From NCBI GenBank assembly GCA_021202075.1, contig JAJQDT010000094.1, positions 52,234-96,673 on the forward strand: a stretch of 44,440 nucleotides of DNA. Direction: 5' to 3'. The position numbers and the translations under genes are program-made. The notes under the pieces are model-generated. The model saw only the letters and a list, made by a program, of their open reading frames with translations. It ran no database searches and had not been told where the DNA came from. Positions 31,241-41,385 of the stretch are shown here, piece by piece. The number at the start of each line of letters is the position of its first letter. The stretch's first letter is position 1. This DNA comes from Lachnospiraceae bacterium (GTDB lineage: Bacteria; Bacillota; Clostridia; Lachnospirales; Lachnospiraceae).

Positions 31241-31348
31241 CGCAGGACTTCGTCCTACGACAAAATCCGGTGAAGGTCACAAGTTCTGCTTTACAGCAGA
31301 ACTTACGACATACCATGAGCAGGCCTGCGTCCCGAGCAGAGTTCGGGA
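31241..31348 (+). promoter_or_regulatory. Three-hairpin leader before the WYL regulator
   Basis: AGGAC/GTCCT (31244-31248 with 31252-31256), AAGTTCTGC/GCAGAACTT (31281-31289 with 31296-31304, 9 bp perfect) and TCCCGA/TCGGGA (31330-31335 with 31343-31348). The first two are each followed by ACGACA. They may be operator sites for the WYL protein or RNA structure. Confidence 0.4.
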
Positions 31349-31371
31349 AAATAATCGGAGGGGTGAGAGCT

Positions 31372-32352
31372 ATGCCGAGAGAAAACTGGCAGAAAATTAA
31401 ACTACTGAAACTTGTTGACCTGCTGCGCCAGGAAACGGATGAACAGCATCCTCTCACCACGGCACAAATATGTGAGCGGCTGAATGAAATGGACATCCCA
31501 TGCGACCGGCGTGTTTTAAGCAAGGATATCGACCTCTTAAACGCCAATGGTGTTGAAGTCCGCTGGACATCGGTTGGCAAGGGGAAAGGGTATTATATTG
31601 AAAGCAGGGACTTTTCCGTCCCTGAATTAAAAATACTGATTGATGCGGTTTGCGCAGCCAATTTTATTACGGATAAGAAGACCGCATCTCTGGTGAATAA
31701 GATTGCCAGCCAGGGCGGCACCAACAGGGCGGAGATTTTAAAAAGCAATCTTGCGTATTACAACACACGCAAGCATAGCAATGAAAACATTTATGACAAT
31801 GTGGCGGCTGTAGAGGATGCCATACAGCGCAGGAAGAAAATCATCTTCCGTTATTTTGACCTTAACATACGGGATAAGCGAGCCTACCGGCGCGACGGTC
31901 ATCATTATGTGGTGGAGCCGGTTGCCCTTGTATATAATGAGGATAATTATTATGCCGTAGTCTACAGCGCAAAACATGATAACACGGCGAACTACCGTCT
32001 TGACCGAATGGATGATGTTGAAGTGATAGATGAAAGCATTTCGGAAAGAGCACTGGCACTGAGGAATAGTGTAAGTGAAAATACCGAACAGGCGATTAAA
32101 ATGTACGGCGGCGAGCTGCAGACGGTCATACTGGAATTCGACATCAGACTCATCGGTATGGTGTATGACCGGTTTGGAGAGAAAATCAGTATGATGCCTG
32201 CCGGTATCGACAAGGTTGCGGCGACTGTGGACGTGCAAATCTCACCCACCTTCTGGGGCTGGCTGTTCCAGTTTGGAAAGCAGATGCGGGTGATTTCGCC
32301 GGAGGTTGTGGTAAAAGAGCAGCGGGAACGAATAGAGGAATTGATGGGATAG
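31372..32352 (+). CDS. WYL-domain transcriptional regulator
   Basis: 326 residues from the ATG at 31372, chosen because GGAGGGG lies 8 bases upstream. Residues 5-80 form a winged helix-turn-helix of DeoR type (TTAQICERLNEMDIPCDRRV and LSKDIDLLNANGVEVRW). Residues about 140-220 carry the WYL domain (HHYVVEPVALVYNEDNYYAV, then YRLDRMDDVEV), which binds nucleic acid or nucleotide ligands. The WCX extension follows. WYL regulators often sit beside phage defence genes. Here it is followed by the scar of a helicase gene and then by cas3, so it may control the CRISPR system or be left over from the lost one. Confidence 0.9.
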   Translation: MPRENWQKIKLLKLVDLLRQETDEQHPLTTAQICERLNEMDIPCDRRVLSKDIDLLNANGVEVRWTSVGKGKGYYIESRDFSVPELKILIDAVCAANFITDKKTASLVNKIASQGGTNRAEILKSNLAYYNTRKHSNENIYDNVAAVEDAIQRRKKIIFRYFDLNIRDKRAYRRDGHHYVVEPVALVYNEDNYYAVVYSAKHDNTANYRLDRMDDVEVIDESISERALALRNSVSENTEQAIKMYGGELQTVILEFDIRLIGMVYDRFGEKISMMPAGIDKVAATVDVQISPTFWGWLFQFGKQMRVISPEVVVKEQRERIEELMG

Positions 32353-32774: not shown

Positions 32775-34961
32775 ATGCCAGAACTAAAAAAGTTTGCTGC
32801 TCATATCGATCCAGAGGGAAATGAGCAATCGGTGAAGGAACATCTAATTGGGACAGCGGAGAAAACGAGCCAATTTGCATCTGAGTTTGGATGCGCAGAG
32901 ATAGGATATCACTGCGGTCTTTTGCACGACATCGGGAAATATTCAGATGCTTTTCAAAAAAGAATACATAATCCTGAAAAATATAGAAAAATCGATCACT
33001 CTACAGCGGGAGCCAAAGAAACGAAACCACCGGAAGGCATGGTGATTGCGGGACACCACAGTGGGCTGATGGATGGCGGAAACAGTTTAACCTCTTATGC
33101 CGGAGATGGAACGTTTTTGGGCAGAATGAAGTCGGTCATTCCTGATTATGACGATTGGAAAAAAGATCTGTCCGAGGAAATTAATTTTGATTATAATTAT
33201 ATAGAATTACAGCCGGACTTTGCCCGAAAAGGTGGGTTTAGTGCGGCCTTTTTTATGCGAATGCTTTATTCTTGTCTTGTGGATGCGGATTATCTGGACA
33301 CAGAGTGTTTTATGGATAAAGAGAAAGCAGATAATCGAAGCGGGTATGATGCATTAGAAGTACTGATAAAGAAATTCGATGAATATACCAGACCATGGCT
33401 GAATCCGACTGGCAAGGTACAACCGTTATATCAATGCAGAACTAAAATTCTCAGAGAATGTATGCAAGAAGGCGAGGAACTTCATAAGGGCCTTTATACT
33501 CTTACTGTGCCTACAGGGGGCGGGAAGACAACCGCATCCATGGGATTTGCATTACATCAGATAAAAGCTCATGAAATGAAAAGAATCATTTATGTGATTC
33601 CTTATACATCCATTATTGATCAGACAGCAGAAATCTTTTCTACTATTTTTGGAAGGCATAATGTTGTAGAACATCATTCCGGAGTGCTGTTGGATTCAGA
33701 CGAGAACAATTGCGACCCGCGGCAAATAAGAAATGTTCTGGCAACAGAGAACTGGGATGCCCCTGTGATTGTGACAACGGCGGTTCAGTTTTTTGAATCG
33801 TTATTTGCAAATAAAAGCTCCAAATGCAGGAAGCTTCACAATCTGTGTAACAGCGTGATTATTTTTGATGAAGCGCAGACACTGCCAATTCCATATTTAA
33901 AACCCTGCATAGCGGCGATTGCACAACTAGTACAGAATTATGGGGCAACGGCAGTTCTCTGTACAGCAACCCAGCCAGCGTTGGAATCCTATTTTAAGGA
34001 ATTTATTCCTGATTTGAAAATGCGGGAAATATGCGAAGGCTGTTCAAAGGAAGAAAGTTTAGTATTTGAACGGGTTACAATCAGAAACGCTGGTCTTTTG
34101 ACTATGGAGCAGCTGGAAGAAAGGCTGAATAAAAACAGCCAGATATTATGCATAGTAAACAGGAAATCTACGGCACAGGAGCTATATAACTGTTTAGACA
34201 ATGATGGAAGATACTGCCTTACAACGTTTATTTATCCTGCTGACAGAAAAGCAAAGATTGCGGAGATAAAACAAAGATTAAAGGACGGAAGACCATGCAA
34301 GGTAATATCAACATCTCTCATAGAAGCCGGGGTGGATCTGGATTTCCCTGCGGTATATCGGGAGGAAGCCGGACTAGATTCTCTGATACAGGCGGCAGGG
34401 CGCTGCAATCGAGAAGGCAAACGCTCGAAAGAACAGAGCGAAGTATTTTCATTTTCGCTGGAAGGGAAAAGCAATCCACGGATGGAGCAGAGCCGTGGTG
34501 CGCTCCGGGAAACCATAAGGAAATATGAAAAGGTAAACAGCTCAGAGGCAATTGCTTTTTATTTTCAGTATTATCGGGAACTTTTAGGTCAGGAAAACCT
34601 GGATGAAAAAGGACTTATAAAAATATGGGATCAGATGGAAAATTTCTTCCCGTTTGCTACGGCTGCGAAAAAATTCAAGCTGATTGAAAATGACACGGAA
34701 ACGATCTATATACCTGCGGATGAGACAGTTGAAGAATATTTACAGATCATACAGTCAGGACATGCGAGCAGAACAATTTATCGGAAACTGGGGCAATATG
34801 GTGTTTCTGTACCTGAATACCAGTTTCAGAAATTTATAGATCAGGGACTGGTAGATGAAGTCGCAGAAAATATATATGTGCTAAACGATATGGGAAAATA
34901 TGATTCTCAGACAGGATTGCAGTTGGATCCTGAAATGGGAATCGGAATCTTTTTTGATTGA
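32775..34961 (+). CDS. cas3: CRISPR-associated nuclease-helicase Cas3, type I-C
   Basis: 728 residues. The N-terminal HD nuclease domain carries His23 (KEHL), His51-Asp52 (LLHDIGKYSD) and AGHHSG. The SF2 helicase domain carries Walker A TGGGKT at 247-252, DEAQ at 365-368, the SAT-like CTATQPAL and the late motif LIQAAGRCNREG. Cas3 is recruited by target-bound Cascade and degrades the displaced strand with ATP. GAATGAGG precedes the ATG. Unlike the other cas genes it is not tightly coupled: 200 bases with a hairpin and a separate promoter lie between it and cas5c. Confidence 0.95.
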   Translation: MPELKKFAAHIDPEGNEQSVKEHLIGTAEKTSQFASEFGCAEIGYHCGLLHDIGKYSDAFQKRIHNPEKYRKIDHSTAGAKETKPPEGMVIAGHHSGLMDGGNSLTSYAGDGTFLGRMKSVIPDYDDWKKDLSEEINFDYNYIELQPDFARKGGFSAAFFMRMLYSCLVDADYLDTECFMDKEKADNRSGYDALEVLIKKFDEYTRPWLNPTGKVQPLYQCRTKILRECMQEGEELHKGLYTLTVPTGGGKTTASMGFALHQIKAHEMKRIIYVIPYTSIIDQTAEIFSTIFGRHNVVEHHSGVLLDSDENNCDPRQIRNVLATENWDAPVIVTTAVQFFESLFANKSSKCRKLHNLCNSVIIFDEAQTLPIPYLKPCIAAIAQLVQNYGATAVLCTATQPALESYFKEFIPDLKMREICEGCSKEESLVFERVTIRNAGLLTMEQLEERLNKNSQILCIVNRKSTAQELYNCLDNDGRYCLTTFIYPADRKAKIAEIKQRLKDGRPCKVISTSLIEAGVDLDFPAVYREEAGLDSLIQAAGRCNREGKRSKEQSEVFSFSLEGKSNPRMEQSRGALRETIRKYEKVNSSEAIAFYFQYYRELLGQENLDEKGLIKIWDQMENFFPFATAAKKFKLIENDTETIYIPADETVEEYLQIIQSGHASRTIYRKLGQYGVSVPEYQFQKFIDQGLVDEVAENIYVLNDMGKYDSQTGLQLDPEMGIGIFFD

Positions 34962-34974
34962 GTTTTTATGGTAA

Positions 34975-35043
34975 CAGAACGGGCGACAAGGTGAATTTGT
35001 CGCCCGATGCTGCTTAACAGATAATTCTCAAATTTCAATCCAC
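34975..35043 (-). ncRNA. Predicted crRNA-like regulatory RNA with truncated repeat
   Basis: Read on the minus strand, 35043-35032 is GTGGATTGAAAT, identical to the last 12 bases of the 32-base CRISPR repeat, the part that forms the crRNA 5' handle in type I-C. No other part of the repeat is present. A 25-base pseudo-guide follows (35031-35007, beginning TTGAGAATTATCTGTTA), then the hairpin at 35006-34980. The total of about 65 bases is close to a mature I-C crRNA. Guide positions 1-17 match the cas5c promoter region at 14 of 17 positions beside a TTC PAM. Inferred role: guide for autorepression of the cas operon. Confidence 0.6.
34980..35006. terminator. 9-bp hairpin behind cas3; also the 3' hairpin of the minus-strand RNA
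   Basis: CGGGCGACA (34980-34988), loop AGGTGAATT, TGTCGCCCG (34998-35006), perfect. On the plus strand only ATGCTGCTT follows, a poor U-run. On the minus strand TTCTGTT follows, somewhat better. On that strand it closes the predicted crRNA-like RNA, standing where a normal crRNA carries the repeat hairpin. Confidence 0.5.
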
Positions 35044-35046
35044 ATC

Positions 35047-35074
35047 ATATTAGATGACAAAAAAAGTATATCAA
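35047..35074 (-). promoter_or_regulatory. Minus-strand promoter of the crRNA-like RNA
   Basis: On the minus strand TTGATA (35074-35069), a 16-base spacer and TAATAT (35052-35047). RNA would begin 6 to 8 bases later, at 35041-35039, inside GTGGATTGAAAT, so initiation itself would create the 5' handle without processing by Cas5c. Confidence 0.55.
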
Positions 35075-35103
35075 AATTTTTATGAAAAATATAGAGGAAA
35101 CTA

Positions 35104-35132
35104 TTGACTTTTTAAAAATATAGTTATAGTAT
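35104..35132 (+). promoter_or_regulatory. Promoter of the cas5c-cas8c-cas7c-cas4-cas1-cas2 operon
   Basis: TTGACT (35104-35109), a 17-base spacer and TAGTAT (35127-35132); TATAGT two bases earlier is an alternative. RNA would start near 35139. Confidence 0.6.
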
Positions 35133-35134
35133 TG

Positions 35135-35154
35135 TAACTAATAATACTCAAGAA
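35135..35154 (-). promoter_or_regulatory. Predicted Cascade binding site: PAM plus 17-base partial match to the pseudo-guide
   Basis: On the minus strand 35154-35152 reads TTC, the type I-C PAM. Directly 3' of it 35151-35135 reads TTGAGTATTATTAGTTA, against guide TTGAGAATTATCTGTTA. Mismatches are at 6, 12 and 13. The PAM overlaps the ribosome site (AAAGGAG) and the match covers the RNA start, so bound Cascade would block both the promoter and the message start. Confidence 0.6.
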
Positions 35155-35167
35155 AGGAGAAATGAAA

Positions 35168-35812
35168 ATGATCCGTTTGGAGGTTTTTGGCGATTATGCC
35201 TGTTTCAGCCGCCCGGAACTCAAAACAGAAAGAGTAACTTATGATGTAATTACTCCATCTGCTGCGCGTGGTCTGTTGGAATCAATCTTCTGGCATCCCG
35301 GGCTTAAGTTTTGCGTAGAACGCATCTATGTCCTGAATCCGATCCGCACAACGAGTATTAAAAGAAATGAAGTAAAATCAAAAATACTTGCGAGCAATGT
35401 GAAGAAAACGATGATTGACGGAAAGAGCGATTTGTATCTGAATACTTCAGATGAGCGAAATCAGCGTTCAGCGTTGATTCTGCAGGATGTACATTATGTA
35501 ATTGAGAGCCATTTTGATATGACCGATAAGGCTGCGCCAAGTGATAACCCGGGGAAATTTCAGGATATCCTAAAACGGCGAATCCGAAAAGGGCAATGCT
35601 ACCATCAGCCATACTTTGGATGCCGGGAGTTTCCGGCACATTTCTGTGAGTGGGAAGGAGGAGAGATTCATCCGCTCCCGATCGATAAGGATCTGGGATA
35701 TATGCTGTATGATATGAATTATGATGATTTGCAAAATATTCAGCCGATGTTCTTTCATGCTCAGCTCAAACAGGGAATTATGGAAGTCGAAAATTGTGAG
35801 GTGATTATGTGA
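35168..35812 (+). CDS. cas5c: Cas5c (Cas5d), type I-C crRNA endonuclease subunit
   Basis: 214 residues from the ATG at 35168. AAAGGAG ends 8 bases before it, whereas the ATG at 35162 would leave only 2 bases. IRLEVFGDYACFSRPELKTE is the RAMP-fold start of the family, and KGQCYHQPYFGCREFPAHF is the conserved C-terminal stretch with the Lys/His region used for RNA cutting. In type I-C, which has no Cas6, this protein cleaves the repeat and keeps the 5' handle. It would therefore be the subunit that binds the handle of the crRNA-like RNA found upstream. It ends in ATGTGA, overlapping cas8c by 4 bases. Confidence 0.93.
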   Translation: MIRLEVFGDYACFSRPELKTERVTYDVITPSAARGLLESIFWHPGLKFCVERIYVLNPIRTTSIKRNEVKSKILASNVKKTMIDGKSDLYLNTSDERNQRSALILQDVHYVIESHFDMTDKAAPSDNPGKFQDILKRRIRKGQCYHQPYFGCREFPAHFCEWEGGEIHPLPIDKDLGYMLYDMNYDDLQNIQPMFFHAQLKQGIMEVENCEVIM

Positions 35813-37551
35813 TTTTACAGGCATTGGTAAGGCATTATGAGGATCTGCTGGAAAAAGGCCAGATTCCGCAGCCAGGCTGGGGAACGGAAAAGATATCCTT
35901 TCAGCTGAATATTGATTCGCAGGGAAAGCTTTTAGACCTGGTTTCTCTAAAGAGGGAGGTTGATAGTGGAAAGAAAAAAGTAATGGTGCCACTTGATATG
36001 CAGGTTCCTCAGCGTGTAAAGCGTGCCAGTGGGATAAATGCAAATTTTCTATGCGATAATTCTTCGTATGTGTTTGGAACTGACGAAAAAGGAAAACCGG
36101 AGCGTTCTCTGCAGTGTTTTCAGGCATTTCGAGAATTACACCATCAGATACTGGATTCGATTGATTCAGAGATTGCGAGAGCCATTCTTCTTTTCCTGGA
36201 TGGATGGGAACCAGAAAAAGCAAAAGAGTATGAGTGTGTTGTTTCTCACTGGAAAGATCTTATGAAAGGGGCCAATATTCTTTTATATGTGGACGGAGTG
36301 TCTTCCGTGGAGGATGCGAAAATCAGAACCGGCTGGCAGGAGCACTATGAGGATTCTGACGGAAATTCGGATTGTATCTGCATGGTAACCGGAAAGAAAA
36401 CAAAAGCAGCAATCCTTCATCCGATTATTAAAGGCATTTACGGAGCACAGGCGATGGGAACCTCTCTTGTCTCGTATAATGCTCCGGCATTTTGCTCTTA
36501 TGGAAAGGAGCAGGGAAAAAATGCCTCTGTAGGTGAGTATGCCGCAGCCGCTTATGGAGCGGCTTTAAACCATCTGCTGAATGATCGGGAGCATGTAAGA
36601 AGCATCGGGGATACTACGGTAGTATGCTGGGCAGATGGCGCTGAGGAAAAATATCAGGACGCCGCGCTTGCTGCTTTTATGGGTGAAAGCGATCGCAATA
36701 AGATATCGGAAGATGATATTCGGGCAATTTTAAAAGCGGCATTGCAAGGAGCACCTCTGGATCTGGAAAATGTGGACTTAGATATGGCCAGACCGTTTTA
36801 TATTCTGGGATTGGCTCCAAATGCGGCCAGATTGTCTGTTCGATTTTTCTATCAGGATTCTTTTGGAAACCTGCTGAGAAACGTGGCCAGACATTATGAA
36901 CGAATGGAGATCATAAGGCCTGCGAAAGACCCGTTTGAAAGACTTCCAGTGTGGAAAATGTTGCAGGAGACAGTGAATCAGAACTCAAAAGATAAAAGTC
37001 CTTCCCCACAGATGGCTGCTGATACATTGAAAGCTATTTTATCTGATAGCTATTACCCAGATTCTCTGATAAATGGGGTAATGCTTCGAATCAGGGCGGA
37101 ACATAAGATAACAAGGGGGCGGGCTGCCACTATTAAGGCTTTTTACCTGAAAAACACAAATCCAAAATGTCCGAAGGAGGTGCTGCAAATGCAGCTGAAT
37201 GAGCAGAGTACAAATATTTCATATAATCTTGGACGATTATTTGCGGTATTAGAGCATATCCAGCAGGAAGCAAACCCTGGGATTAATGCGACCATTAAAG
37301 ACAAGTATTTTAATACTGCGGCTTCTACACCGTCGCATATTTTTCCGTTTTTGATTAATCTGTCGCAGAAACACTTAAAGAAAATTAAAGAACCGAATAA
37401 AAAGGTGTATTTTGAAAAAAACATACAGAATATTGTAGAAAAACTTGGGGAGAAATTTCCAGACAGGATGACATTGCCGGAACAGGGATCTTTCCAGCTG
37501 GGATATTATCATCAGACACAGAAACGCTATCAGAAAAAGGAGGAAAAGTAA
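35809..37551 (+). CDS. cas8c: Cas8c (Csd1), large subunit of type I-C Cascade
   Basis: 580 residues beginning at a GTG inside the cas5c stop codon. MILQALVRHYEDLLEKGQI is the usual opening of Csd1, and DGNSDCICMVTGKKTKAAIL and FCSYGKEQGKNASVGEYAA are typical central blocks. The protein reads the PAM (TTC in this subtype) and, by internal translation, often also supplies the small subunit; a candidate internal start region near residue 460 (MQLNEQ) would fit the helical C-terminal part. It is followed without a gap by cas7c. Confidence 0.93.
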   Translation: MILQALVRHYEDLLEKGQIPQPGWGTEKISFQLNIDSQGKLLDLVSLKREVDSGKKKVMVPLDMQVPQRVKRASGINANFLCDNSSYVFGTDEKGKPERSLQCFQAFRELHHQILDSIDSEIARAILLFLDGWEPEKAKEYECVVSHWKDLMKGANILLYVDGVSSVEDAKIRTGWQEHYEDSDGNSDCICMVTGKKTKAAILHPIIKGIYGAQAMGTSLVSYNAPAFCSYGKEQGKNASVGEYAAAAYGAALNHLLNDREHVRSIGDTTVVCWADGAEEKYQDAALAAFMGESDRNKISEDDIRAILKAALQGAPLDLENVDLDMARPFYILGLAPNAARLSVRFFYQDSFGNLLRNVARHYERMEIIRPAKDPFERLPVWKMLQETVNQNSKDKSPSPQMAADTLKAILSDSYYPDSLINGVMLRIRAEHKITRGRAATIKAFYLKNTNPKCPKEVLQMQLNEQSTNISYNLGRLFAVLEHIQQEANPGINATIKDKYFNTAASTPSHIFPFLINLSQKHLKKIKEPNKKVYFEKNIQNIVEKLGEKFPDRMTLPEQGSFQLGYYHQTQKRYQKKEEK

Positions 37552-38439
37552 ATGAGCGAAGCAATTAAAAACAAGTATGATTTTGTGATTCTATTTGATG
37601 TGGAAAATGGGAATCCGAATGGAGACCCGGATGCCGGTAATATGCCGAGAATTGATCCGGAAAGCGGATATGGCCTTGTGACGGATGTATGTCTGAAAAG
37701 AAAGATCAGAAATTATGTGGAAATGGTAAAAGAAGATGCCACGGGCTATCGAATTTATATTAAAGAAAATGTTCCTTTGAACGCAAGCGATAAGGAAGCG
37801 TATGACTCACTTGGTGTCGAACCGGGACAGATAAAAGTGATGAAAAAAGATAATCCGGATTTGGATAGAAAAGTGCGTGATTTTATGTGCGGGAATTTTT
37901 ATGATATTCGTACCTTTGGCGCAGTTATGACCACGTTTGTTAAGGATAATTTAAACTGCGGACAGGTTCGTGGACCGGTGCAGATCGGGTTTGCACGATC
38001 GGTAGATCCAATTATACCGCAGGAGATTACCATCACGAGAGTTGCTATAACAACTGAAGCAGATGCGGAGAAAAAGAATACAGAAATGGGGCGGAAGTAT
38101 ATTGTGCCATATGGCCTGTACCGCGCAGAAGGCTACGTGTCTGCAAATTTGGCTCGAAAAGTGACGGGTTTTTCAGAAGAAGATCTGGAACTGCTCTGGC
38201 AAAGTATTTTGAATATGTTTGAAAACGATCATTCAGCTGCGAGAGGAAAGATGGCAGTGCGAAAACTGATTATTTTCAGGCATGACAGTGAATTAGGCAA
38301 TGCTCCATCCCATAAGCTTTTTGACAGCGTTAAGGTTGTAAAAAAGGATGGTGTTGATGTTCCGCGAAGTTTTGAAGATTATAACCTGACATTACCTTCA
38401 GAATTGCCGAAAGGAGTTACCTGTATTTGCAGGGATTAA
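37552..38439 (+). CDS. cas7c: Cas7c (Csd2), backbone subunit of type I-C Cascade
   Basis: 295 residues. DVENGNPNGDPDAGNMPRID and VTDVCLKRKIRNYVE are the Csd2 signatures. RTFGAVMTTF and GPVQIGFARSVDPI follow. About seven copies coat the guide and force every sixth base out of the duplex; this bears on the mismatch pattern of the pseudo-guide described upstream. AAGGAGG lies before the ATG, which follows the cas8c stop directly. Confidence 0.95.
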   Translation: MSEAIKNKYDFVILFDVENGNPNGDPDAGNMPRIDPESGYGLVTDVCLKRKIRNYVEMVKEDATGYRIYIKENVPLNASDKEAYDSLGVEPGQIKVMKKDNPDLDRKVRDFMCGNFYDIRTFGAVMTTFVKDNLNCGQVRGPVQIGFARSVDPIIPQEITITRVAITTEADAEKKNTEMGRKYIVPYGLYRAEGYVSANLARKVTGFSEEDLELLWQSILNMFENDHSAARGKMAVRKLIIFRHDSELGNAPSHKLFDSVKVVKKDGVDVPRSFEDYNLTLPSELPKGVTCICRD

Positions 38440-38442
38440 TCT

Positions 38443-39120
38443 ATGGCGTATAAGGAAGATGACTACTTAATGCTTTCCGGCCTGCAGCATTTTGTGTTTT
38501 GCCGAAGGCAGTGGGCGTTGATTCATATCGAACAGCAGTGGGCTGAGAATTACCAGACCACTGCTGGTGAACTGATGCACAAGAATGCTCATGATGAAAG
38601 CAAATTTGAGAAGCGCGGGGACACCATGATTGCACGTGGCCTGCGAATTGCTTCGCCGCAGTTGGGATTGAGCGGTCAGTGTGATGTGGTCGAATTTCAT
38701 AAGTCGGAAGAAGGTGTTCCTGTTTTTGGATACGACGGATGCTGGAAAATAATCCCTGTAGAATACAAACGCGGCAAAGCAAAAGAAGGGAAGGAAGACG
38801 AGGTACAACTCTGCGCGCAGGCGATGTGTCTGGAAGAAATGTTCCTGACACAGATTGACGAAGGCTATCTCTTTTATGGCGAGACAAAACGAAGGACATA
38901 CGTGTCTTTTAGCGACAAGCTGAGGGATTATGTGCGACAGTGCGCTCGGGAGATGCACGATTATTTTGACCGTGGCTATACTCCGAAGGTCAAGACATCA
39001 TCGAAATGCAGATCCTGCTCTCTGTCAAATCTTTGTGTGCCGAAGCTGAACAAAAAGGGGACTGTCAACCAATATATCGAAGCTCATATGACAGATGAAG
39101 ATGTGGATAAGGGGGAGTGA
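38443..39120 (+). CDS. cas4: Cas4, adaptation exonuclease
   Basis: 225 residues. The iron-sulphur cluster cysteines are C20 (FVFCRRQW) and C189, C192, C198 (KCRSCSLSNLC). The RecB-type nuclease core is DVVEFH (Asp81) and PVEYKR (Glu107, Lys109). Cas4 trims new spacers and selects those next to a TTC PAM, working with Cas1 and Cas2. The stop overlaps the GTG of cas1 by 4 bases. The gene itself looks intact even though its partner is broken. Confidence 0.94.
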   Translation: MAYKEDDYLMLSGLQHFVFCRRQWALIHIEQQWAENYQTTAGELMHKNAHDESKFEKRGDTMIARGLRIASPQLGLSGQCDVVEFHKSEEGVPVFGYDGCWKIIPVEYKRGKAKEGKEDEVQLCAQAMCLEEMFLTQIDEGYLFYGETKRRTYVSFSDKLRDYVRQCAREMHDYFDRGYTPKVKTSSKCRSCSLSNLCVPKLNKKGTVNQYIEAHMTDEDVDKGE

Positions 39121-39905
39121 GTACGAGAAAATTATTAAATACCCTGTACATCATGACGGAGGATGCATATCTGACTCTGGATGGTGAAAATGTTGTGGTA
39201 GTAAATGGCGAAACCACCCTAGGAAGAGTTCCGCTGCATACGCTTGAAAACATTATCTGCTTTACGTATAAAGGAGCGTCTCCGGCTTTTATGGGAGCAT
39301 GTGCGGACAGAAAGATAGGCTTGTGCTTTTATTCCCCTACAGGGAAATTTCTCGCGAGGATAAAAGGAAAAGAGTATGGCAATGTTTTGCTGCGCAAAGA
39401 ACAATACCGAATCTCGGATTCCCTGGAAAGAAGCACCGATTATGCAAAAAACATGATTCTGGGTAAGGTATATAACTGCCGATGGAATATAGAAAGAACC
39501 ATAAGAGATCATGCATTAAGAGTCGATGTGGACAAGCTTCGTACTGCGTCGCAAACCTTAAAGGACGGCTATCAGAAAATTCCTCTTATTTCGGAAATGG
39601 ATGAGTTAAGGGGAAAAGAAGGAAAGCTGGCGGAGTGCTATTTTGGCGTTTTTGATGAACTGATATTGAATCAAAAGGAAGATTTTATTTTTAAAAATCG
39701 AAATCGCAGACCGCCGCTTGATAATGTGAATGCGCTGCTGTCTTTTGCGTATACGGCTCTGGCAAATGACTGCGCAAATGCATTGGAGAGCGTTGGCCTG
39801 GATCCATATGTAGGGTTTATGCATCGCGATCGGCCTGGCCGGAAATCTTTGGCGTTGGACTTGATGGAGGAGCTTCGCGCTGTCTCAGGCGACGGTTTGT
39901 GTTGA
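39117..39905 (+). CDS. cas1: Cas1 integrase, N-terminal part (frameshifted)
   Basis: 262 codons from a GTG that overlaps the cas4 stop. MTEDAYLTLDGENVVV is the normal opening. Glu168 (GKEGKLAE), His236 (FMHRDRPGRKSLALD) and Asp248 mark the active site. A full type I-C Cas1 has about 340 residues; this frame stops early at VSGDGLC because one C is missing after 39893. With it, GAC CGG TTT GTG would read DRFV and join the downstream frame. The lost tail of about 84 residues belongs to the helical domain that shapes the active site, so adaptation is probably off unless frameshifting or a sequencing error is involved. Confidence 0.9.
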   Translation: MSTRKLLNTLYIMTEDAYLTLDGENVVVVNGETTLGRVPLHTLENIICFTYKGASPAFMGACADRKIGLCFYSPTGKFLARIKGKEYGNVLLRKEQYRISDSLERSTDYAKNMILGKVYNCRWNIERTIRDHALRVDVDKLRTASQTLKDGYQKIPLISEMDELRGKEGKLAECYFGVFDELILNQKEDFIFKNRNRRPPLDNVNALLSFAYTALANDCANALESVGLDPYVGFMHRDRPGRKSLALDLMEELRAVSGDGLC

Positions 39906-40153
39906 CATTGATTAATATGAAAAAGATATACGCTTCGCATTTTGAAAAGCAGAAAGACGGTGCGGTTTATCTGAACGAAAAAGGCAGAAAGGTATTTTTC
40001 AGCGAGTGGCAGGCAAAAAAGCGAGAGAGCATTACCCATCCTTATTTGAAAGAGAAGATAGAATGGGGACTGGTGCCATACGTGCAGGCATTGCTTCTGG
40101 CGCGTACCATACGCGGCGACCTGGATGAATATCCGCCATTTTTCTGGAAATGA
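39899..40153 (+). pseudogene. cas1: Cas1 C-terminal part in the shifted frame
   Basis: LTLINMKKIYASHFEKQKDG followed by VYLNEKGRKVFFSEWQ, THPYLKEKIEWGLVPYVQA and RGDLDEYPPFFWK is the standard C-terminus of type I-C Cas1. It continues the N-terminal frame after one missing base near 39893. There is no ribosome site at its apparent GTG start, so it is not a gene of its own. The sequence after the shift is still well conserved, so the mutation is recent or the window has an error here. Confidence 0.88.
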
Positions 40154-40162
40154 GGTGAAAGA

Positions 40163-40453
40163 ATGCTGGTGTTGATTACGTATGATGTCAGTACAGTAGA
40201 TGGAGCAGGGCGCAGACGGCTGCGAAAGGTAGCAAAAGAGTGTGTGAACTATGGGCAGAGAGTTCAAAATTCCGTGTTTGAGTGTGTAGTGGATGCCTCA
40301 CAATCGTTACTCCTGAAAGATGCATTGCTGAAGCTCATTGATCCGGAAAAGGACAGCCTGCGATTTTATTATCTTGGAAATAATTACAAAACAAAAATTG
40401 AACACTTTGGTGCTAAGAATACTTATGAGGCTGAAGGAACCCTTATGCTGTAG
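40163..40453 (+). CDS. cas2: Cas2
   Basis: 96 residues with the ferredoxin-like start MLVLITYDVSTVDGAGRRRL, Asp8 at the metal site, and VQNSVFECVVD and RFYYLGNNYKTKIEHFGA. It forms the bridge of the Cas1-Cas2 integrase. GAGGTGA lies 6 bases before the ATG. Last gene before the leader. Confidence 0.95.
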   Translation: MLVLITYDVSTVDGAGRRRLRKVAKECVNYGQRVQNSVFECVVDASQSLLLKDALLKLIDPEKDSLRFYYLGNNYKTKIEHFGAKNTYEAEGTLML

Positions 40454-40617
40454 CCGTGCGAAGCCGGAGCGAACATGAGAAAGCAAGGAGTTTCGCACTG
40501 AAAAAACAAGTAAATATAAAAGAAAATAATAGAGAATTTCTGACAAATGAGTGATAAAACAGGGGATAATATCTAATAGAATGCTTACTTGCCGGGCAAA
40601 ATTTGTCTATTATTGCC
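40454..40617 (+). promoter_or_regulatory. CRISPR leader
   Basis: 164 bases, A/T rich, between cas2 and the first repeat. It starts with an inverted repeat GTGCGAA (40456-40462) / TTCGCAC (40492-40498), an arrangement usual behind cas2 in type I-C loci. A GATAAT at 40565-40570 with CTGACA 19 bases before it is a possible promoter of the array. The degenerate repeats at the far end confirm that this is the leader side. Confidence 0.7.
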
Positions 40618-41385
40618 GTCGCTCCCTTCGCGGGAGCGTGGATTGAAATTGGCATACGGGGATGTAAGAATTTATCTGTATTAGTCGCTCCCTTCGCGGG
40701 AGCGTGGATTGAAATCCCTTTGGTTGTGTGTATATTAACTCTGATGCGGCAGGAGTCGCTCCCTTCGCGGGAGCGTGGATTGAAATAATAACTTCTACAG
40801 AGGTAGCATTAGTAGCAATTCGTCGCTCCCTTCGCGGGAGCGTGGATTGAAATATCGTAGTGACGCACACCTACCGACCATGCAAGGTCGCTCCCTTCGC
40901 GGGAGCGTGGATTGAAATAGTTAGCAGTGTGGAAAAATACCATCCATCACAGGTCGCTCCCTTCGCGGGAGCGTGGATTGAAATCTATGATTATTTCGAT
41001 ATTTCCAAATGGGAAGAGTCGCTCCCTTCGCGGGAGCGTGGATTGAAATAACTAATCCTCTGTATCCGGCGATCTTTCCGCCGTCGCTCCCTTCGCGGGA
41101 GCGTGGATTGAAATTGATATACAGAAAAGAATAGACGCGGAAGTCGATGACGTCGCTCCCTTCGCGGGAGCGTGGATTGAAATTCTGTTAATCAATAGTC
41201 ACAGATTTCAGGTGACAAGTCGCTCCCTTCGCGGGAGCGTGGATTGAAATGTATACAAGCTGAACGGGACGGATATGCTCGCGGTCGCTCCCTTCACGGG
41301 AGCGTGGATTGAAATACCGTATACGCGGCAGAGGATATCTACCACCCAGACGGGTCGCTCCCTTCACAGGAGCGTGGATTGAAAT
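40618..41385 (+). CRISPR. Type I-C CRISPR array, 12 repeats and 11 spacers
   Basis: The 32-base repeat begins GTCGCTCCCTTCG, has a GCTCCC/GGGAGC stem and ends GTGGATTGAAAT. Repeats start at 40618, 40684, 40755, 40822, 40887, 40953, 41018, 41083, 41152, 41219, 41284 and 41354. Spacers are 33 to 39 bases. The first ten repeats are identical. The last two carry G-to-A changes in the loop and stem (TTCACGGG, then TTCACAGG), as expected at the leader-distal end. No spacer was seen to match elsewhere in the window. Confidence 0.98.

Follow-up and report, generated by a model that had tools for sequence, protein, structure and literature searches.

CRISPR-derived RNAs that aim an effector at host promoters by a short match are known from type II systems as tracr-L and scaRNA; the element described here is like them in this respect, while they belong to Cas9 systems and have a different RNA architecture. 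The closest described systems are the CreR and CreA RNAs. CreR, a crRNA-like RNA partly complementary to a cas promoter, occurs in type I and type V-A systems according to one review (PMC12737573), and its autorepression has been demonstrated in types I-B, I-E and V-A according to another (PMC13131331). For a haloarchaeal I-B CreA, mutations have shown a TTC PAM, pairing at guide positions 1-5 and 7-11, and positions 6 and 12 unpaired (PMC8501985). The element in our locus shares the partial complementarity to a cas promoter with CreR, it shares the TTC PAM and the described pairing with the CreA of the CreTA and CrePA modules, and it also has the one-repeat-plus-terminator form reported for the CreA of H. 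hispanica. By contrast with the reported CreR, it belongs to type I-C, which is without Cas6 and in which Cas5c would cut, it has one shortened repeat and a hairpin where CreR has two repeats, it has about 15-16 paired bases, and its action is a prediction; by contrast with CreA, its target lies at cas5c and not at a toxin. RacrIC1, a phage RNA anti-CRISPR against type I-C, also has a solitary I-C repeat in an RNA, but it is described as a phage-borne repeat mimic that inhibits interference, whereas the present element is host-borne and has a guide and a target. No report of a type I-C CreR was found in the literature that we searched, although an earlier in-silico listing may exist. In this predicted form, the mode of action of CreR would be found in a subtype that lacks Cas6, in an element with a single shortened repeat and a hairpin as its end.

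Among the subtypes of type I, I-C is a common one, and its crRNAs are cut by Cas5c and not by Cas6. In the window, by which we mean the whole stretch of 44,440 nucleotides that was analysed, the type I-C locus occupies positions 32775-41385, with the gene order cas3-cas5c-cas8c-cas7c-cas4-cas1-cas2 followed by an array with a repeat ending in GGATTGAAAT, which places it in this subtype. The cas3 gene (32775..34961, plus strand) precedes the guide-RNA gene and falls outside the promoter that is targeted, while cas5c (35162..35812, plus strand) is the first gene behind the target; an alternative cas5c start, the ATG at 35168, has a better spacing from AAAGGAG at 35153-35159. Together with cas8c (35809-37551) and cas7c (37552-38439), both on the plus strand, cas5c encodes Cascade. 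The array (40618..41385, plus strand) has 12 repeats of GTCGCTCCCTTCGCGGGAGCGTGGATTGAAAT, the last two of which (41284-41385) have point changes, as is frequent at the old end of arrays. It is noted that cas1 is split over two overlapping frames, 39117-39905 and 39899-40153, which cover profile positions 1-257 and 259-340, arising either from a frameshift or from an assembly error; given this split, adaptation may have been lost in this locus. Note also that a WYL-domain protein, of a family of transcriptional regulators, is encoded at 31270-32352, upstream of cas3.

The cas3-cas5c gap is 200 bases long and holds, on the minus strand, a guide-RNA gene with the layout of a promoter-like box, a short repeat, a 23-nt guide and a hairpin. 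The predicted -10 box TATACT (35065..35070), a hexamer match to TATAAT, lies 6 nt before a GTC, with a weak -35, and the strand reads TATACT-N6-GTCATCTAATATGATGTGGATTGAAAT, which is a whole but shortened repeat. This shortened repeat (35032..35058) is composed of GT, a 4-bp CATC/GATG stem-loop and an 11-nt tail TGGATTGAAAT, and RNA folding of the array repeat gives the matching layout of GT, stem and 11-nt tail. Its end is the crRNA 5'-handle sequence GTGGATTGAAAT (35043-35032), which the preliminary description had identified with the 12 bases that end the array repeat; the identity is exact, and of the 13 copies of this 12-mer in the 5.55 Mb assembly 12 are in the array and only the one in the gap is outside it, while the reversed 12-mer, taken as a control pattern, has no copy. 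The 23-nt guide segment follows at 35009..35031, its first 17 nt (35031-35015) being TTGAGAATTATCTGTTA. There is thus, near the cas genes and outside the array, a crRNA-like element with a repeat-derived handle and a spacer-like guide, as in CreR. A GC-rich hairpin CGGGCGACAA-N7-TTGTCGCCCG (34980..35006, minus strand) begins 25 nt after the handle and is predicted to be the RNA 3' end or a terminator, and it may also end the cas3 transcripts; no clear T-run was found behind it in the window, and some relatives, e.g. L028 and L036, have one. From this layout the RNA would have its 5' end at G35058 and its 3' end after the hairpin.

The target of the guide is the protospacer TTGAGTATTATTAGTTA (35151-35135, minus strand), flanked by a TTC PAM (35154-35152, minus strand) and located over the predicted cas5c transcription start. 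The promoter, predicted by consensus match only, lies at 35104..35132 on the plus strand, with TTGACT at 35104-35109, TAGTAT at 35127-35132 and the start at about 35139, so that target and PAM span -5 to +15 relative to the predicted start. As already claimed in the preliminary description, guide and target match at 14 of 17 positions (1-5, 7-11 and 14-17) next to the TTC, with mismatches at 6, 12 and 13. Counting from the handle, Cas7 flips bases 6 and 12 out of the duplex, and in the following the match score is the number of matches among the 15 non-flipped guide positions, with at least 11 of 15 taken as a target. By this score the window guide reaches 14/15, while the 12 sequences following the array repeats reach at most 8/15 against the same gap and none of 500 shuffled guides equals the real match; TTC followed by the target seed, TTC+TTGAGNATTAT, occurs in the assembly a single time, at the target.

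Based on these features and on the comparison of relatives given below, we consider it very probable that the gap element is a type I-C CreR, i.e. an RNA that would guide Cascade to the cas5c promoter and lower Cascade production. The RNA would be transcribed from the TATACT promoter with its start at G35058, Cas5c cleavage at the foot of the short stem would leave UGGAUUGAAAU, and the RNA would then assemble with Cas5c, Cas8c and Cas7c. The complex would bind the target by about 15 paired bases (1-5, 7-11 and 13-17), with bases 6 and 12 flipped out, a pairing that would be too short to license Cas3 cleavage. Bound Cascade would block the transcription of cas5c, cas8c and cas7c, and probably also of cas4, cas1 and cas2, presumably leaving cas3 free of repression, and the operon would be released by crRNAs or anti-CRISPRs that divert Cascade from it. 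That the effect is repression is suggested by the position of the target and by the analogy with CreA and CreR.

As proposed in the preliminary description, the same gap was compared in related I-C loci. A minus-strand handle in the cas3-cas5c gap was present in 48 I-C loci including the window, these being the window, its relative L002, 37 of the 80 loci of a Cas7c scan (the best 80 of 108 I-C loci, mostly of Clostridia) and nine loci from Cas5c, plasmid and phage searches. For Cas8c the further searches covered 98 genomes, for Cas5c 392 genomes within the order and 398 within the phylum; in the latter two sets at least 35 and at least 71 genomes, respectively, bear Cas5c, and the best 30 places of each were taken; in plasmid and phage collections, 50 plasmid and two phage records had a Cas5c match, and three and one stretches were taken. 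Before counting, L001 was left out as a second copy of the window, and L003, L010 and L019 because cas3 is absent from their stretch; loci that had no cas5c match, or a scanned stretch of less than 150 bases, were left out as well. L003 and L050, with 12/15 each, are outside the 48. Among the carriers are cultured bacteria, e.g. Faecalibacterium sp. An122 (L032) and Lachnoclostridium sp. An196 (L069). Handles were accepted with at most two mismatches, and there are none in 28 loci, one in 16 and two in four. Since the best of all TTC sites in a gap was taken as its target, the counts per position lean towards matches; the controls were scored identically.

In 43 of the 48 handle loci the same gap holds a TTC target at 11/15 or better, and in 39 at 13/15 or better, so that handle, guide and target are kept together in the relatives, as in CreR. 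No two of the 43 guides are identical, and 30 distinct 5-nt seeds occur among them, yet the mean match is 13.95/15 to the own target as against 6.35/15 to the targets of other loci. Among 1806 comparisons of a guide with a foreign target, 88 reach 11 and 30 reach 13, because close relatives share seeds. Such a co-change is seen in the nearest relative found, L002, which is of the same genus, with a Cas8c 96% identical, and has kept handle and hairpin: its guide is TTTAGATTTGAGTGTTA, TTC-TTTAGTTTTGATTGTTA lies upstream of its cas5c, the mismatches are again at positions 6 and 12, and between the window and L002 seed and target are both altered, from TTGAG to TTTAG. Array spacers scored against their own gaps in the first 39 loci reach 11 in 3 of 1049 cases and 13 in none, and pseudo-handles at random gap positions reach 13 in 1 of 1835. 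For the 35 first-set loci with a target, shuffled guides equal the real match in 0 of 500 trials in 33 loci and at frequencies of 0.004 and 0.006 in L041 and L049, and in 32 of the 35 the guide is better than every other position of its own gap. The preliminary description had held that relatives keeping guide or target alone would speak against it; this is absent in 43 of the 48 loci and applies to the other five (L053, L055, L063, L077 and L104), where no TTC target at 11/15 or better was found. L063 and L077 are closely related and have a decayed element, L063 with 14/15 at a TTA site and L077 with a mutated handle and a best match of 9/15.

The other parts of the element also recur. In 27 of the 48 loci a TATAAT-like hexamer (at least 5/6) stands exactly 6 nt before a GTC on the upstream side of the handle, as against 4 of 353 other GTCs of those gaps, and a stem of at least 4 bp leaving the same 11-nt tail is found in 43 of the 45 handle loci that have a GTC candidate, as against 6.4% of shuffles, where the best GTC per locus was chosen for the real count and the shuffles were without such a choice. 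Moreover, for the 32 loci with a usable repeat, the T/A variant of the handle agrees with the own array repeat in 10 of 11 cases for A and 17 of 21 for T. The handle variant thus mostly tracks its own repeat, and the RNA therefore seems to change in step with the effector by which it is read.

Two aims of the guide can be discerned, with 35 of the 43 matching loci aimed upstream of cas5c and eight aimed at another gene. In L065, L069, L072, L102, L104, L106, L110 and L162 two genes lie between cas3 and cas5c, and L003 and L101 have remnants of the two-gene insert. The first cargo gene encodes a DUF3990 protein (PF13151, E 4.1e-50 for L069), and no Pfam match was found for the second, the 146-aa partner. 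The TTC target is upstream of the DUF3990 start in the same loci except L104, and in the remnant L101 (8/43), and likewise, at 12/15, in L003; L104 has the cargo and no TTC target at 11/15 or better. DUF3990 is reported as a member of the Pfam ADP-ribosyltransferase clan (PMC7955679), and our structural model (pLDDT 82.8) has a weak resemblance to the ADP-ribosyltransferase fold. We hypothesize that the cargo acts as a toxin over which Cascade stands guard, in the manner of CreA; the logic is the same as in CreA modules, while the likeness to CreTA and CrePA, where the guide points to the promoter of the toxin linked to it, is one of form only, and the cargo is a predicted ADP-ribosyltransferase as opposed to the tRNA-sequestering RNA or KilA-N protein of the described CreTA and CrePA modules. 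The window was also considered as such a module and rejected: no cargo gene was found in its gap among frames of at least 80 aa, and its guide fits the cas5c promoter instead. It is also noted that the gap of L070 holds a HicA/HicB toxin-antitoxin pair in opposite orientation, and its guide still fits the cas5c promoter.

Relative to the best predicted promoter, the targets of 23 of the 35 cas-aimed loci, i.e. the window and 22 others, overlap the region from -35 to +25, in which transcription is blocked by a bound complex, as against 16.1 expected, which is a weak excess. Limited complementarity to the own cas-operon promoter next to a functional PAM, as in CreR, is present in the window and 34 other loci; the promoters are predictions, and 12 sites do not fall within -35 to +25. 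Of these 12, three lie further downstream and nine cluster at about -71 to -38. These nine (L076, L079, L081, L087, L088, L093, L094, L097 and L108) form a second geometry, with the target just upstream of the predicted cas5c -35. Activators use such positions, and one may argue that the RNA-guided Cascade activates the promoter, or only tunes it from a site upstream of -35. The DUF3990-aimed targets can be adduced in the same sense: measured from the start of the best-scoring promoter they begin at -66 to -70 in L069, L072 and L106, and measured from the start that belongs to the second-ranked promoter they begin at -69 or -70 in L003, L101, L102 and L110; by the best promoter L065 (-95) and L162 (+21) are off this pattern. 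We consider activation or such tuning unlikely, because the majority of the cas-aimed sites lie inside the blocking region, because Cascade bound at the upstream sites would, with its whole footprint, extend to the -35 box, and because CreA and CreR are reported to repress. In the reading as a CreR, Cascade at the upstream sites might still cover the -35 box, or might act otherwise.

The pairing within the 43 guide-target pairs bears on whether Cascade is involved. Positions 1-5 match in 43, 43, 43, 43 and 42 loci, positions 7-11 in 42, 40, 42, 41 and 42, and positions 13-17 in 39, 40, 39, 36 and 25, while position 6 matches in only 7 and position 12 in only 6, and positions 18-26 in 6 to 15 each. 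Together, positions 6 and 12 match in 13 of 86 cases, which is if anything under the 21-30% expected from base composition. When sites were sought without regard to the PAM, 42 of the 48 loci had one at 12/15 or better, flanked by TTC in 41 and by TTA in one. Based on these data, it is very unlikely that the RNA is a plain antisense sRNA that pairs with the cas5c 5' leader and blocks translation without Cascade. Such an sRNA would fit the window target, which lies in the predicted leader directly before AAAGGAG with the guide antisense to the mRNA, and the same orientation is shared by 32 of the 43 targets. But the other 11 targets are reversed and have no pairing with the downstream mRNA (the eight of the DUF3990 class and the cas-aimed L076, L081 and L094), nine of the 35 cas-aimed loci have their target ahead of the predicted promoter, and neither the TTC, nor the mismatches fixed at 6 and 12 from the handle, nor the handle that mostly tracks the array repeat would be expected of it; the dips at 6 and 12 and the oppositely oriented targets thus argue for Cascade and against plain antisense pairing. 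The core proposal of the preliminary description, that a crRNA-like RNA takes the I-C Cascade to its own operon promoter, is supported by the handle, the TTC, the 5+1+5+1+5 pairing, the co-change and the predominant aim upstream of cas5c. Finally, that the element is a functionless decayed array remnant with a chance match nearby, as the shortened repeat and the five handle loci without a TTC target might suggest, is hardly credible against the co-change over 43 different guides, the 32 of 35 first-set guides that beat all other positions of their gaps and the recurrence of box, stem and hairpin among the relatives.

The distribution of the element was followed on a tree of 145 Cas5c proteins, with gap counts only for loci with cas3 in the stretch. 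Where the gap is at least 150 bases, 39 of 50 loci have element and target, five have a handle without target and six have no handle; where it is shorter, the element is found in 2 of 84 (L041, and L050 with the element upstream of cas3). Since there are long-gap loci without a handle and the short-gap loci have the element so seldom, type I-C does not need it. The state of the element requires at least 23 changes on the tree, implying that it is gained or lost often, and even close pairs differ in it (L044 versus L039 and L047; L036 versus L038), the element-less members having gaps of 55-78 bases, which could not hold both the RNA gene and a separate promoter for cas5c. It is noted that in L050 the handle lies about 187 bases before the cas3 match and the cas3-cas5c distance is 53 bases, as if the element had moved to the operon promoter.

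The switch to the DUF3990 target requires two changes on the same tree. We lean slightly towards the view that in Clostridia I-C systems one guide-RNA gene has been re-aimed by evolution, mostly at the cas5c promoter for autorepression and, within a single lineage, at that of the DUF3990 gene pair, so that a silenced Cascade, e.g. by an anti-CRISPR, would release the immune operon or the toxin, respectively.

With the element described, the setting of the effector dose in type I-C becomes testable, and the feedback loop, if real, would affect strains built with I-C tools and experiments with anti-CRISPRs. In addition, the 43 natural guide-target pairs outline the pairing as 5+1+5+1+about 4-5 with TTC. 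If the re-aiming is true, a CreR and a CreA would be two settings of one gene, and the switch between a cas promoter and a toxin-like gene would show an autoregulator becoming an antitoxin, or the reverse.
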